Assembly: GCA_903898715.1 (NCBI GenBank)
Contig: CAIUGL010000142.1
Coordinates: 1 to 64,000, forward strand
Direction: 5' to 3'
Length of the DNA: 64,000 bases
Origin: an uncultured Cytophagaceae bacterium
GTDB taxonomy: Bacteria > Bacteroidota > Bacteroidia > Cytophagales > Spirosomataceae
Position 1 is the first letter of the stretch. Every line of letters starts with the position of its first letter. The notes under the pieces are model-generated. The model did not search any database. It worked only from the letters and a program-made list of their open reading frames with translations, and had not been told where the DNA came from. Position numbers and translations under genes: made by a program. Shown here in pieces: positions 27,596 through 32,092 of this stretch.

Positions 27596-28855
27596 ATGTC
27601 GACGCACCTAACTGATATCACCCCATTATTAGCCGCCACGCGCAAATCCGCTGCCGCTTTAGCCTTGTCGGCAGATGCCGTCAAGCTCGCTGTCCTTGCC
27701 GATTTAGCTACTCTTTTAGAAGCTAATGTTGCTGCGATTATTTCGGCGAATGAAAAAGATCTGGCTGTTTACGATCCGCAAAATCCCATGCGCGATCGAC
27801 TTTTGTTGACAGAGGAACGAATCCTGGCCTTAGCCGCGAGTTTGCATGATGTGGCCAAATTACCTAATCCATCAGGCCAAGTTTTAGTAGCTAAAACGTT
27901 AGCCAATGGACTTCACTTGGAAAAGAAATCAGTCCCTTTAGGGGTTGTTGGCGTTATTTATGAGTCCCGTCCCAACGTGACAATCGATGTGGCTGCCTTA
28001 TGTATTCGCTCCGGTAACGCGGCTGTATTACGTGGTGGCACGGATGCATGGCATACCAATGCTATGTTAGTTTCGTTGATTCATGCGTCGTTAACAGTTG
28101 CAGGATTATCTACGGATGTTGTTCGGTTGTTGCCTACAGATCGTGCGCATGTGTCAACTTTGCTTACGGCAGTTAAGTACGTTGACGTGATTATTCCACG
28201 TGGTTCGGATGCGTTAATTCAGCGGGTTCGCAAAGAGTCGCTCGTGCCTACGATTGAAACAGGCGCTGGTGTCTGCCATACGTATGTGGCAGAATCGGCT
28301 GATGTGGATATGGCTGTGCGCATTGTGGTTAATGCCAAAGTTTCTCGTCCTTCTGTGTGTAATTCCTTGGATACCATATTGGTTCATGCGGCTATTGCAC
28401 CACAGTTTTTAAGTCAATTGGCTCCGAAACTTGCGGAGTATCAGGTGCATATTTGTGCTGATCCTTCCGCATTAACTATTTTGCAGGGTATGCAATATCC
28501 ACATGTTCAGGCTGCTGTAGAGGCTGATTTCGGTCGGGAATTTTTGGATTTTGCCTGTTCTATCAAAGTAGTTCAGGATACAGCTGAAGCATTAAATCAC
28601 ATCGATAGCTACTCTTCGCGTCATTCTGAAGCGATTGTAAGTTCGGATGAATCGGAAGCTGAGTTGTTTTTACAAGCGGTAGATGCAGCTGCAGTTTTTT
28701 GGAACGCTTCGACACGCTTTACAGATGGCGGAGTTTTTGATTTGGGTGCAGAGATAGGTATTTCCACTCAAAAATTACATGCCCGTGGACCGTTTGCTTT
28801 GGAAAAATTAGTCACTGAAAAATGGGTGTTGAAAGGAAGCGGGCAAATCAGGTAA
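27596..28855 (+). CDS. proA: Gamma-glutamyl phosphate reductase
   Basis: The second step of proline synthesis: NADPH-dependent reduction of gamma-glutamyl phosphate to the semialdehyde. The 419-aa product contains the ProA signatures PLGVVGVIYESRPNVTIDVA and RGGTDAWHTN, and the catalytic thiol C255 in VSRPSVCNSLDT, in a block close to the family consensus. I used the ATG at 27596; the ATG at 27581 overlaps the previous gene by 11 bases and adds MIFNY. No proB (glutamate 5-kinase) is adjacent. The convergent dnaX gene ends one base away. Confidence 0.94.
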   Translation: MSTHLTDITPLLAATRKSAAALALSADAVKLAVLADLATLLEANVAAIISANEKDLAVYDPQNPMRDRLLLTEERILALAASLHDVAKLPNPSGQVLVAKTLANGLHLEKKSVPLGVVGVIYESRPNVTIDVAALCIRSGNAAVLRGGTDAWHTNAMLVSLIHASLTVAGLSTDVVRLLPTDRAHVSTLLTAVKYVDVIIPRGSDALIQRVRKESLVPTIETGAGVCHTYVAESADVDMAVRIVVNAKVSRPSVCNSLDTILVHAAIAPQFLSQLAPKLAEYQVHICADPSALTILQGMQYPHVQAAVEADFGREFLDFACSIKVVQDTAEALNHIDSYSSRHSEAIVSSDESEAELFLQAVDAAAVFWNASTRFTDGGVFDLGAEIGISTQKLHARGPFALEKLVTEKWVLKGSGQIR

Positions 28856-28856
28856 A

Positions 28857-30632
28857 CTAATATTCGTGATCTAGGCCGAGTTTTTGTTTCATTTCGCTCA
28901 GCAGCGGATATTTGTTGGCCAAGAATTCATACTTATCAGACTGCGTATACAGCATTTTTTTGTCGCTTTTCTCCGTCACCAGTACGTCCAACGCAATGTC
29001 AATGCTATAATTTTGTAGGCGTTCACGAATTTTTCCCAATACCTCCAAGCGTACATTTTCATTGAACTGCTGGACTTGTACTTCATTCTCTACTTTCATG
29101 TGGATGATTGACCCGATCAGTTCGATTGGCCGATTCATCATCACATATTTATTGATCAAATTCGCTGACTGGAATTCAGCTGCCAGTTGGTTCCATACCG
29201 TCGTCAGCTCTTCTATCGTAAAGGTCTTTGAATTTGCTGGATCATTGCTTAGACCAGCCAATACTTCTTCCGCTGTTTGTTCAGTCGCTTTTGCGTCAAC
29301 AACCTTTTTAGCTGAGCGTAATCCGGATACCGGATTAGGTTTCGCTTGCGGTGTTGGAACATCCACAGGAATGGTCGTTTCCATCACTGGTTCCTCTTTG
29401 ACTGCAGGGGGTGTCGGCTCTAAAACAGGTGTTTTATGCGTTATTGGGGCTTGTGTTTCGGTAGTTTTGGCCCCAGCGGCTTTCGCCTGGGGCTCAGCCT
29501 TTTTTCCATCACCGCCCTCCGTGGCAGGTTGGAATACCGAAGGCAAATAATTAATCTTCAGTAGGCAAAGTTCGAGATGTAGTCGTGGGTTTTTGGCCGA
29601 CTTATAATTGGTCTCACATTGAGCGCAAATATTCATGGCAGATAGCAAGAAAGACGTACTTGTCTTTTCTGCTTGTTGCTTAAATTTCGCTTTCGATTCG
29701 TCGCTGATTTCCATCAACGCTAGGGTTTGGGGATCTTTGGCAAAAAGTAAATTCCGCAAATGCTCCATAAATCCAGCAATGAATTGTTGGCCATCAAATC
29801 CCTTCCGCATGATTTCATCTAGCAATACTAGGGCTCCCACATGATTTTGTGTGGTCATGTGATCTGTAATTTGCAAGTAGTAATCGCTGTCGAGAATATG
29901 CAAATTCTCCAACACATCCTTATGACGGAGGGTATTGTCGGTTGAAAATGTGACGTTTAAGTCGAACATCGACAAGGCATCACGCAAACCACCATCTGCT
30001 TTAATGGAAATCAATTCCAATGCCGCAGGTTCCGCTTGAATATTTTCTTTGGTTGCAATGGAAGCCAAATGGCTCGCCATATCTTTCCACTGTATCCGGT
30101 TAAAATCGAAAATCTGACAACGGGATAAAATGGTAGGTAAAATTTTATGTTTTTCCGTCGTTGCCAAGATAAAAATGGCATAGGACGGCGGTTCTTCCAA
30201 TGTTTTCAAGAACGCGTTAAATGCCGCGGAAGACAACATGTGCACCTCATCTATGATGTAAATTTTGTAGCGTCCGCGTTGTGGAGGATAACGTACTTGA
30301 TCGATGAGGTTACGAATATCTTCCACCGAGTTATTCGATGCGGCATCTAATTCATGTATGGTTAGGGAGGTACTTTCTTGAAATGAGGTACAAGATGGAC
30401 ATGTTCCACATGCCTCGCCATCAGCCCCAATGTTTTCGCAATTTATCGTTTTCGCCAAGATACGTGCGCAGGTTGTTTTTCCTACGCCACGTGGTCCACA
30501 GAATAAAAATGCTTGCGCCAAATGATTGGACTTGATTGCATTTTTAAGGGTGGTGGTAATGTGGCTTTGGCCAACCACCGAGTCGAACTGGGTGGGTCTA
30601 TATTTTCTGGCTGAAACGATAAAATTTTCCAT
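28857..30632 (-). CDS. dnaX: DNA polymerase III tau subunit (with probable gamma product)
   Basis: The clamp-loader ATPase. Walker A is GPRGVGKT at 46-53, the zinc module has C65, C75, C78 and C81, DEVHMLS is the Walker B region, and LSRCQIFDF is the SRC sensor. Domains I-III end near residue 365; a Pro/Ala/Lys-rich linker and a C-terminal domain V bring the full-length tau to 591 aa. At codons 377-378 the message reads A AAA AAG in phase with an upstream GGAGGG, an immediate -1 frame TGA and a downstream stem-loop, so a 379-aa gamma-like protein is expected by programmed frameshift. Confidence 0.95.
   Translation of the reverse strand: MENFIVSARKYRPTQFDSVVGQSHITTTLKNAIKSNHLAQAFLFCGPRGVGKTTCARILAKTINCENIGADGEACGTCPSCTSFQESTSLTIHELDAASNNSVEDIRNLIDQVRYPPQRGRYKIYIIDEVHMLSSAAFNAFLKTLEEPPSYAIFILATTEKHKILPTILSRCQIFDFNRIQWKDMASHLASIATKENIQAEPAALELISIKADGGLRDALSMFDLNVTFSTDNTLRHKDVLENLHILDSDYYLQITDHMTTQNHVGALVLLDEIMRKGFDGQQFIAGFMEHLRNLLFAKDPQTLALMEISDESKAKFKQQAEKTSTSFLLSAMNICAQCETNYKSAKNPRLHLELCLLKINYLPSVFQPATEGGDGKKAEPQAKAAGAKTTETQAPITHKTPVLEPTPPAVKEEPVMETTIPVDVPTPQAKPNPVSGLRSAKKVVDAKATEQTAEEVLAGLSNDPANSKTFTIEELTTVWNQLAAEFQSANLINKYVMMNRPIELIGSIIHMKVENEVQVQQFNENVRLEVLGKIRERLQNYSIDIALDVLVTEKSDKKMLYTQSDKYEFLANKYPLLSEMKQKLGLDHEY
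29470..29520 (-). promoter_or_regulatory. Predicted programmed -1 ribosomal frameshift signal in dnaX
   Basis: Reading 5' to 3' on the minus strand: a Shine-Dalgarno-like GGAGGG (29520-29515); nine bases later the slippery heptamer AAAAAAG (29505-29499) in the zero frame as GGA AAA AAG; after a -1 slip the next codons are GGC and TGA (stop at 29496-29494). Five bases past the heptamer lies a stem-loop (29493-29470): GCCCCA pairs with TGGGGC, then a 2-base bulge, then GGC-GAAA-GCC with a GNRA loop. Element order, spacing and immediate stop match the known Escherichia coli dnaX frameshift site. Confidence 0.75.
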
Positions 30633-30673
30633 ACGGCAAGTTAACTTTTACGGCATCAATTTCCAAAGATGCA

Positions 30674-32092
30674 TTAAGGCAATTCAACAACCGCGCTGAC
30701 CGGAAAATGATCCGTCGGATATCGGTTTTCCCACGTTTCTGAATGGGTGGCATGTTGGTTTACACGCACCCCATTTTTAACAAATATATAGTCAATGTGA
30801 CGGCCTTCTTGTTCTTTCTTGAACCCATTAAATGAGCTATATGGTCCATAGTGGCCATTTTTGCTTATTTTTTCTGCGTCAGTTAGTTTGTTGGGATTTG
30901 TTGGGTCTACCAAAATTTGAATCGGCTCATCATCTGGGGTAGCGTTAAAGTCACCCGTAATAACGGCTGGAGATTTGCCGGCGATTTCCGCTACTTTACG
31001 TAGGACTAATTTAGCACTTTCGCGGCGAGCGATTTTACCTAAATGGTCAAAATGGGTATTAAATACATAGAATTTTTTACCTGTTTTGATCTCTTGAAAT
31101 TGACCCCATGTCATGACTCTGCGGCAGGCAGCATCCCAGCCAAAACCTACTTTTTCACATGAATCAGAAAGCCAAAATGTACTTTCTTTGAGTAATTTAA
31201 ATTTACCGGCATGGTAAAATAGGGGAGAGAATTCACCTTCCTCTTTGCCATCATCACGTCCTTTACCAAACCACTTGTAACCGGGTAATTCCTTGGCAAA
31301 ATCCTTGATTTGATGTACAAATGCCTCTTGCATGCCGATGATATCAGCCTCGTGGTATTTAATTAATTCAGCACAATGTTTGGCGCGGTATTTCCATTGA
31401 TCCTGACCATCTGAATCTGTATCGAGTCGGATATTGAAGGTCATGGTTTTGATTTGTCCAAAGCTGCTTAAGCTGATTAAGAGTAGTAGCATAACGCCAC
31501 CTAGACTTTTGTAAATGTGTTCAATTTGTGGCCAAATACGTGTTTTTTGGCTGTTTTCAATAATGAATTCGGCGCCTTTCATATAGCTTGTAGGTTTAGG
31601 TTGAATATCAATGATCTGCATGGTTTGCATGTAGTTCATGTGTTTTCTTTTTTGAATGTTGCTGATTCGTTCTTCCAGCGGACAAGATACAGCAATAAGC
31701 TGATCCAAGTGTTCTGGCTTGTTTTTGGGTGTTATCAGCGCGGATTCGTATAGATAAAAGGGGGCAAGAGGTGCAGTTTCCAGCCAAGCCGTAGCTGCTT
31801 TGCGCACCGCTGGATGAATGATCTGATTAAGTACTTCGATATCCTGAGGGTATTTTTGCAAGATTTTTTTGATGCCTTCGCGATTGTAAGTTCCATCAGC
31901 TAAATACGCCTGAGGACCAAATTCCTCCGTGATGGCGGATTTAACGTCTGGATCAGAATCACATAGATTTCTGGCTGCTAGATCAGCCTCAAATACGGGA
32001 ATTCCCAGCATAGAAAAAATCCGACAAATCATCGATTTGCCGGATCCTATTCCGCCTGTAATGCCGATAAAGGGTTTCAGGCTTGTAGACAT
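30674..32092 (-). CDS. Dephospho-CoA kinase fused to secreted endonuclease/exonuclease/phosphatase
   Basis: A 472-aa open frame made of two complete proteins. Residues 1-197 are CoaE: P-loop GITGGIGSGKS, the EADLAA block and IIHPAVR. Residues 201-472 are an EEP-family hydrolase with its own signal peptide (MLLLLISLSSFGQ) and motifs MQEAF, NTHFDHLG, GDFNATPDD and YPTDHFPV. The internal ATG is at 31492-31490 with AGGTGG four bases upstream. Removing one A from the AAAA run (plus-strand 31507-31510) gives IYKV-stop, a CoaE of the normal 196 aa. Either the genes fused through a frameshift, both products are made separately, or the base is an assembly error. Confidence 0.9.
   Translation of the reverse strand: MSTSLKPFIGITGGIGSGKSMICRIFSMLGIPVFEADLAARNLCDSDPDVKSAITEEFGPQAYLADGTYNREGIKKILQKYPQDIEVLNQIIHPAVRKAATAWLETAPLAPFYLYESALITPKNKPEHLDQLIAVSCPLEERISNIQKRKHMNYMQTMQIIDIQPKPTSYMKGAEFIIENSQKTRIWPQIEHIYKSLGGVMLLLLISLSSFGQIKTMTFNIRLDTDSDGQDQWKYRAKHCAELIKYHEADIIGMQEAFVHQIKDFAKELPGYKWFGKGRDDGKEEGEFSPLFYHAGKFKLLKESTFWLSDSCEKVGFGWDAACRRVMTWGQFQEIKTGKKFYVFNTHFDHLGKIARRESAKLVLRKVAEIAGKSPAVITGDFNATPDDEPIQILVDPTNPNKLTDAEKISKNGHYGPYSSFNGFKKEQEGRHIDYIFVKNGVRVNQHATHSETWENRYPTDHFPVSAVVELP
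31490..31502 (-). promoter_or_regulatory. Internal ribosome-binding site and start inside the coaE fusion
   Basis: On the minus strand AGGTGG (31502-31497) is followed four bases later by ATG (31492-31490), which opens directly into a signal peptide. The +1-frame TAG at 31503-31501 overlaps the AGGTGG. This arrangement would let the secreted EEP protein be translated on its own, independent of the CoaE part. Confidence 0.55.

Follow-up and report, generated by a model that had tools for sequence, protein, structure and literature searches.

The window analysed here, a 64,000 nucleotide stretch of DNA from an uncultured member of the Cytophagaceae, carries the dnaX gene on its minus strand (28857..30632). 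The full zero-frame ORF of 591 codons encodes a tau protein of 591 aa and 66.0 kDa that matches TIGR02397 with 429 bits. Within DnaX, Pfam identifies the clamp-loader ATPase, the lid, and domain III, the last of which spans residues 240–370. A second reading path (29494..30632, minus strand) follows the zero frame to Lys378 and would then continue in the -1 frame with Gly379 and a TGA. The predicted shift product is a gamma protein of 379 aa and 42.3 kDa with a GGDGKKG carboxy terminus. Since domain III ends at residue 370, gamma would be cut just past the clamp-loader core; the reading path thereby agrees with the earlier note, which had proposed a gamma-like product of 379 aa retaining domains I–III. 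The tau-only part, made up of a linker and the tau C-terminus, is read in the zero frame past the heptamer (28860..29498, minus strand), and residues 441–591 are matched in the -1 frame in relatives.

Elements of the predicted frameshift site

Read along the minus strand, the site is ordered as GGAGGG CGGTGATGG A_AAA_AAG GC TGA followed by the hairpin GCCCCAGGC-GAAA-GCC-GC-TGGGGC. GGAGGG, a Shine-Dalgarno-like (SD-like) candidate stimulator, occupies 29515..29520 and is separated by the nine-base spacer CGGTGATGG (29506..29514) from the slippery heptamer AAAAAAG (29499..29505), which is in the zero-frame phase A_AAA_AAG over codons 377–378. Past the slip the -1 frame reads GGC TGA, and its second codon, the TGA at 29494..29496, would end gamma. 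The putative downstream stimulator is a hairpin (29470..29493) that begins five bases past the heptamer and consists of nine pairs, a GAAA loop, and a two-base bulge on the 3' arm. An in-phase heptamer, a GGAGGG nine bases 5' to it, a TGA as the second -1 codon, and a GAAA-capped stem of nine pairs were what the earlier note had claimed, and each of them was recovered. Taken together, the features of an E. coli-type signal are all present, namely an in-phase A_AAA_AAG after domain III, an SD-like element upstream, a stem-loop downstream, and a nearby -1 stop. Rfam contains a dnaX frameshift element family; a cmscan of 28800–30700 with E-values up to 5 matched no dnaX frameshift element.

The window has 50 mechanical ORFs that reach 150 aa or more, 19,694 codons in total. 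In-phase A_AAA_AAG occurs three times in them, and dnaX alone among the three has GGAGG 6–20 nt upstream. The pattern GGAGG-N9-GAAAAAAG-NN-TGA was found in two of 395 sampled class genomes, a sample in which the source genome is the sole representative of its genus. One occurrence is this dnaX; the other is a single place on contig 2 of genome G284 that has no DnaX match around it, the dnaX of G284 being on contig 3. Use of the GGAGGG for an internal translation start in another frame (GGAGGG-CGGTG-ATG) was also considered. The spacer ATG is present in 7 of 52 heptamer loci and in only one of the 34 genus loci, the window's own, and due to this rarity the internal start was rejected.

Elsewhere in the window, a single ORF (30674..32092, minus strand) joins a dephospho-CoA kinase (PF01121) to an Exo_endo_phos domain (PF03372), with an apparent signal peptide between the domains as judged by eye. 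This fusion is one open frame in 25 of the 29 genus loci that have enough flank, the exceptions being L024, L026, L036, and L037.

Conservation within the genus

The genus set comprised 37 genomes (36 relatives and the source genome), of which 34 gave a readable dnaX. Only weak dnaX matches were obtained from G010, G013, and G029 (best E-values of 1e-11 to 1e-13), and these were taken as other proteins. In all 34 readable genes, GGAGG, an interval of 10 nt, A_AAA_AAG, two bases, and TGA are present at codon 375–380. The comparison at codons 377–379 for which the earlier note had called was therefore favorable within the genus for the heptamer, the -1 stop, and GGAGG (34/34), but not for the hairpin, which is not universal.

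Synonymous change was compared over 32 genes (496 pairs), with L030 and L041 left out as incomplete. The lowest value among 541 eleven-codon windows was that of codons 376–386 at 0.25 of expected; the lowest window outside this region reached 0.58 and lies near the gene start. Codons 372, 376, 377, and 378 show zero synonymous change. Codon 379 may be TCT, CTT, GCT, CCT, or TAT, representing five amino acids, with a third base that is always T, so that together with the following GA the TGA is preserved. Codon 371 is ACG, GTG, GCG, or AAG, and the invariant G at its end opens the GGAGG motif. With third bases fixed at codons 371 and 379 while the amino acids vary, protein constraint is an inadequate explanation. 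The same is seen on a wider scale, where each of the 52 heptamer loci has NNG as the codon preceding GAG, with six different amino acids represented. This comparison supports a dnaX frameshift in the genus that is programmed.

The downstream hairpin

Folding was assessed on 42 nt starting 3 nt past the heptamer, with the energy ranked against windows of the same gene. For the dnaX analysed here, this 42-nt segment has an energy of -16.7 kcal/mol, below every sampled window of the gene. A 61-nt fold starting in the heptamer gave another best structure (-20.1 kcal/mol, z -2.75), where a second GCCCCA, located farther downstream, is the partner of the 3' arm and where bases that the ribosome would cover are paired.

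A strong fold, defined as the lowest 5 percent, is present in 26 of 34 genus loci, and 28 fall within the lowest 10 percent. In 19 of these 26 strongly folded loci, the largest helix begins no more than 9 nt past the heptamer. The main stem begins 20–25 nt past the heptamer in L015, L022, L023, L024, L026, and L028, and L029 has its largest helix at 20–25 nt plus a second helix at 5 nt. Six genus members have no strong fold (L013, L016, L019, L021, L025, and L027); their genomes are 2.9–3.2 Mb with 37–38 percent GC, and the GC of the genus dnaX loci is near 38 and 43 percent. In a comparison of 18 genus loci, both bases of outer pairs 2 and 6 have changed from one subgroup to another (C-G to T-A and A-T to C-G), these paired changes representing few events. 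Outside the genus, a strong fold is present in 5 of 18 heptamer loci and in none of the nine g57 loci, where SD and heptamer thus seem to be nearly alone. The hairpin probably helps slippage in many members. As judged from these loci, the downstream fold is lineage-specific and stands outside a constant core to which GGAGG belongs.

Signal types across relatives

A set of 196 dnaX loci was classified, consisting of 34 genus, 60 other family, 22 order, and 80 named class loci. The family loci were drawn from 59 of 128 matched non-genus genomes, with at least one for each matched genus (30 genera) and with every sampled member of genera where the heptamer occurred; five of the 150 genomes searched for this sample had no dnaX match. 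As this sampling was non-random, the family tallies are not frequencies, and the named class loci are the best-scoring 80 of 593, so that their tally leans to close relatives.

SD plus heptamer was found at 52 of the 196 loci (36 A_AAA_AAG and 16 G_GGA_AAG). A run of at least eight A is present at 115 loci, that is, 115 of the 144 without SD-heptamer, and 29 loci have neither signal. There is a sharp length preference for runs of exactly 10 A (91/115), at about codon 350–415. GGAGG occurs in the 24 nt upstream of 52 of 52 heptamer loci versus 6 of 115 A-run loci, and every heptamer locus has a GGAGG at 10 nt, two carrying a second at 3 nt. Mixed signals are seen in L099 and L081, which have an A9 run with GGAGG 6–7 nt upstream; L099 adjoins one SD-heptamer group in the DnaX tree and is perhaps an intermediate.

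In the Bacteroidia dnaX genes sampled, a run of about 10 A is the most frequent state. At the site itself, most sampled relatives have A9–A11, and other family members have G_GGA_AAG. The A-run loci place tau in the zero frame in 76 cases and in the -1 frame in 35, with 4 not classed, and where tau is in the zero frame the -1 frame is closed at the first or second codon in 58 of 76. Slippage probably occurs on these runs. A two-ORF dnaX type with A10 was reported in 2013 for nine genes, according to the available text (Antonov et al. 2013, PMC3711429), and A-runs of about this length past domain III are common in the sampled Bacteroidia too. The earlier note had named relatives lacking the elements as a result that would count against its claim. 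Such relatives exist outside the family and the signal is not Cytophagales-wide; however, another likely frame-change signal is usually there.

With an identical SD spacing, G_GGA_AAG was found in the sampled members of g23, g31, g49, and g57 (16 loci), and the sampled g27 member has A_AAA_AAG. The heptamer classes were chosen by letters, so that the preceding G is partly built in, and GGA AAG pairs were counted independently. At codons 366–394 of all 196 loci there are 17 in-phase GGA AAG pairs, 16 of which follow G and have GGAGG upstream; the remaining pair, from the order sample, follows A and has no SD. This G ahead of GGA AAG is contributed by GTG, GCG, GGG, TTG, or ATG as their final base, and these codons specify five different amino acids. 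No text on measured slippage at G_GGA_AAG was found in the available part of PMC4066793.

In L071, from the one genome of the closest sister genus, GGAGG and A_AAA_AAG are accompanied by a TAA in the zero frame and a nine-pair hairpin, and the tau C-terminus is in the -1 frame (E-value 3e-51). Eight of the nine g57 loci carry TAG as the zero-frame codon directly past the heptamer. Seven of these have tau in the -1 frame and the eighth, L120, ends at a contig end; the ninth g57 locus, L079, has tau in the zero frame. The zero frame stops right after the heptamer in nine relatives in all, and tau is in the -1 frame in all eight that are readable. Thus, frameshifting would make tau in these relatives.

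Another arrangement was observed in three named Bacteroidales or Bacteroidetes records. An in-frame TAG is located directly after domain III in L163 (codon 367), L190 (codon 367), and L184 (codon 368), and the tau C-terminus continues in frame past it (HMM E-values of 5e-22, 1e-20, and 1e-9, respectively). Common to the three are the 12 bases TAGATTGC[AT]AGG, followed by linkers that are little alike, and their DnaX N-termini are 73–83 percent identical. TAG also terminates other mechanical ORFs in these loci. Among the matches listed for a 256-genome class sample, none had a stop inside the DnaX match. It is possible that UAG readthrough operates here, with gamma made by termination and tau by readthrough.

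Evolutionary history

A tree was calculated from 100 DnaX N-termini, for which 12 rows were taken from the 34 of the genus, together with the complete set of 60 from the family, 22 from the order, and 6 named ones. The SD-heptamer rows form two groups within the family, with support of 100 and 96 and a poorly resolved backbone between them. Constraining the tree to one SD-heptamer clade improves the score over that of the free tree by 12.4 log units, and this topology is not rejected (p-AU 0.705); a single switch from A10 to SD-heptamer is thus the simplest history. In this family, then, the SD-heptamer probably took the place of an A10 signal that is common in the class, most simply once. The tau reading frame changed at least 15 times on the free tree. 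L134 (Dyadobacter sp. CY343) groups with g53.

Ribosome context

In Bacteroidia, bS21, bS18, and bS6 form a pocket that hides the anti-SD, and Tyr54 of bS21 stacks on the tail; in Flavobacterium, this Tyr54 helps to occlude the anti-SD, as described in the available text of PMC9976891. The source genome encodes a bS21 of 64 aa with a Tyr at position 54 (rpsU, L113, G000:C77). The earlier note had found an SD stimulator notable in Bacteroidota, which rarely use SD pairing to initiate; both the published occlusion and this Tyr54 weigh against the mechanism proposed below. Only one of the 50 mechanical ORFs of the window has an SD core before its first ATG. The rpsU gene itself is without an extended SD upstream, unlike the report for many Flavobacteriales.

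The source genome also retains, in prfB (L111, G000:C57:5000-6700), a canonical SD-type +1 frameshift signal, AGGAGGTATCTTTGAC. From the available text of PMC8710568, this frameshift is kept in 72 percent (523/726) of surveyed Bacteroidia, and long pausing is proposed to free the 16S tail at prfB; in Flavobacterium johnsoniae, prfB frameshifting is reported to be inefficient (PMC12421855, in part). The Bacteroidia prfB resembles dnaX in that an SD-dependent frameshift signal is kept without SD initiation (PMC8710568). The two differ in that the prfB shift is +1, takes place on a stop codon, and has a short spacer, whereas dnaX would shift by -1 and has an interval of 10 nt.

In E. coli, slippage on AAG is conditional on there being a sole tRNA-Lys, according to the available text of PMC5009743. 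In the single-contig genus genome G006, the 30 of 34 tRNA loci that were read include one tRNA-Lys with anticodon UUU and no tRNA-Lys(CUU). The other four loci are 82, 83, 84, and 61 nt in length and thus unlikely to be tRNA-Lys. Searches for the 16S 3' end yielded only a partial 16S in the source genome and none in six relatives, and a 16S 3'-end pattern had no match in 44 genomes. As a result, the anti-SD sequence of the genus rests on the literature.

Proposed mechanism and alternatives

The dnaX gene is predicted, with a probability of roughly 0.88, to yield tau (591 aa) when it is decoded in the standard way and gamma (379 aa) when ribosomes undergo a programmed -1 frameshift that is aided by the SD and the hairpin. 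At the slip, the ribosome would hold both Lys codons of A_AAA_AAG. The upstream GGAGG may pair with the 3' tail of 16S rRNA and so favor tRNA-Lys slipping by one base, and the hairpin ahead of the ribosome would favor this slippage as well. One more codon would then be read before TGA ends the chain past domain III to give gamma. We infer the slippage and its rate, the action of GGAGG by anti-SD pairing, and the use of gamma from sequence.

The SD-like element of E. coli dnaX is about 10 nt from the heptamer. E. coli dnaX is described as having the same elements as the site here, with A_AAA_AAG, an upstream SD-like element, a hairpin, and a stop after the shift, and the trio that the earlier note had named for making gamma from the tau message is found in the available text (PMC5009743, PMC6787027). 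Both also have gamma, here a predicted product, from the tau frame and, as far as the tRNA loci were read, a sole tRNA-Lys. In contrast to E. coli, the host phylum here has an occluded anti-SD, GGAGG is constant while the hairpin is variable, and among the relatives G_GGA_AAG occurs, as does a tau encoded in the -1 frame. The dnaX of Thermus thermophilus, which uses transcriptional slippage on A9, is the same gene with the same product pair. Compared with it and with the two-ORF dnaX genes with 10 A, the site here has six A with SD and hairpin and is probably ribosomal. The dnaX of Chlorobium phaeobacteroides, a reversed candidate described as unpublished in the available text of PMC5009743, would make tau by a -1 shift and gamma by a zero-frame stop; the same reversed scheme is proposed for L071 and seven G_GGA_AAG loci. 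C. phaeobacteroides differs in that it is from another class and has seven A (PMC3711429, in part), and the reversed dnaX genes here are found in a sister genus and in a further genus with several loci.

Of the alternatives, the one that survives best, while still unlikely, is that the frameshift is real and GGAGG is a relic that stimulates little, leaving the work to the heptamer and hairpin. This would be in keeping with the occluded anti-SD of Bacteroidia (PMC9976891, in part); however, GGAGG is the most constant stimulator (52/52) and it is the hairpin that is weak, distant, or absent in many loci. It is considerably less likely that the frameshift serves as a sink or as an mRNA control step with a short product that is functionless. 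While we know of no test of gamma in this group, the cut falls just past domain III, as in a working clamp-loader subunit, and in the reversed relatives the frameshift product would be tau itself.

Very little weight is given to two mRNA populations arising by Thermus-like transcriptional slippage on the A6, with no ribosomal slippage. To our knowledge, slippage by RNA polymerase does not involve an SD located upstream. The A9–A11 at the site in most sampled relatives are of a type for which slippage has been proposed (PMC3711429, in part), but the run here is only 6 A, compared with the 8–9 or more A of the Thermus type, and the G_GGA_AAG loci have the same SD spacing with no A run at the site. 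Just as improbable is that the stretch is conserved only for its protein, an EGG..GKK.E linker with no programmed frameshift. The genus does conserve Glu and Gly-Lys-Lys, but its codons 371 and 379, and in the G_GGA_AAG loci the codon preceding GGA AAG, have a constant third base even though the encoded amino acid changes. Moreover, nine relatives have a zero-frame stop directly past the heptamer, and for eight of these tau was shown to lie in the -1 frame.

Significance

With programmed ribosomal frameshifting as the preferred reading, comparison of the loci gives good support to an E. coli-like anatomy in a lineage where the SD part is not expected to work. No report of an SD-heptamer signal in a Bacteroidota dnaX was recognised in the literature searched, although 5 of the 17 genes of PMC3711429, which the available part does not describe, could include such a signal. 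What appears to be new among the relatives is a different slippery heptamer, G_GGA_AAG, and the reversal of the products. A single family would then offer a natural series of A10, SD with A_AAA_AAG, and SD with G_GGA_AAG, seemingly for the same two proteins, within which the frameshift product is either tau or gamma. Beside prfB, dnaX would be a second gene in Bacteroidota that apparently needs SD/anti-SD pairing during elongation. At stake is the question of when a hidden anti-SD becomes available, which may be addressed with a reporter.

A doubtful extension is that the gamma:tau ratio is tied to the state of the ribosome. Since bS21, bS18, and bS6 normally hide the anti-SD, GGAGG might be recognised chiefly on ribosomes without bS21 or on ones whose pause is sufficiently long for the tail to come free. 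If this were true, the make-up of the clamp loader would follow ribosome assembly or growth state, and the family would have swapped a growth-blind transcriptional signal (A10) for one that senses the ribosome.
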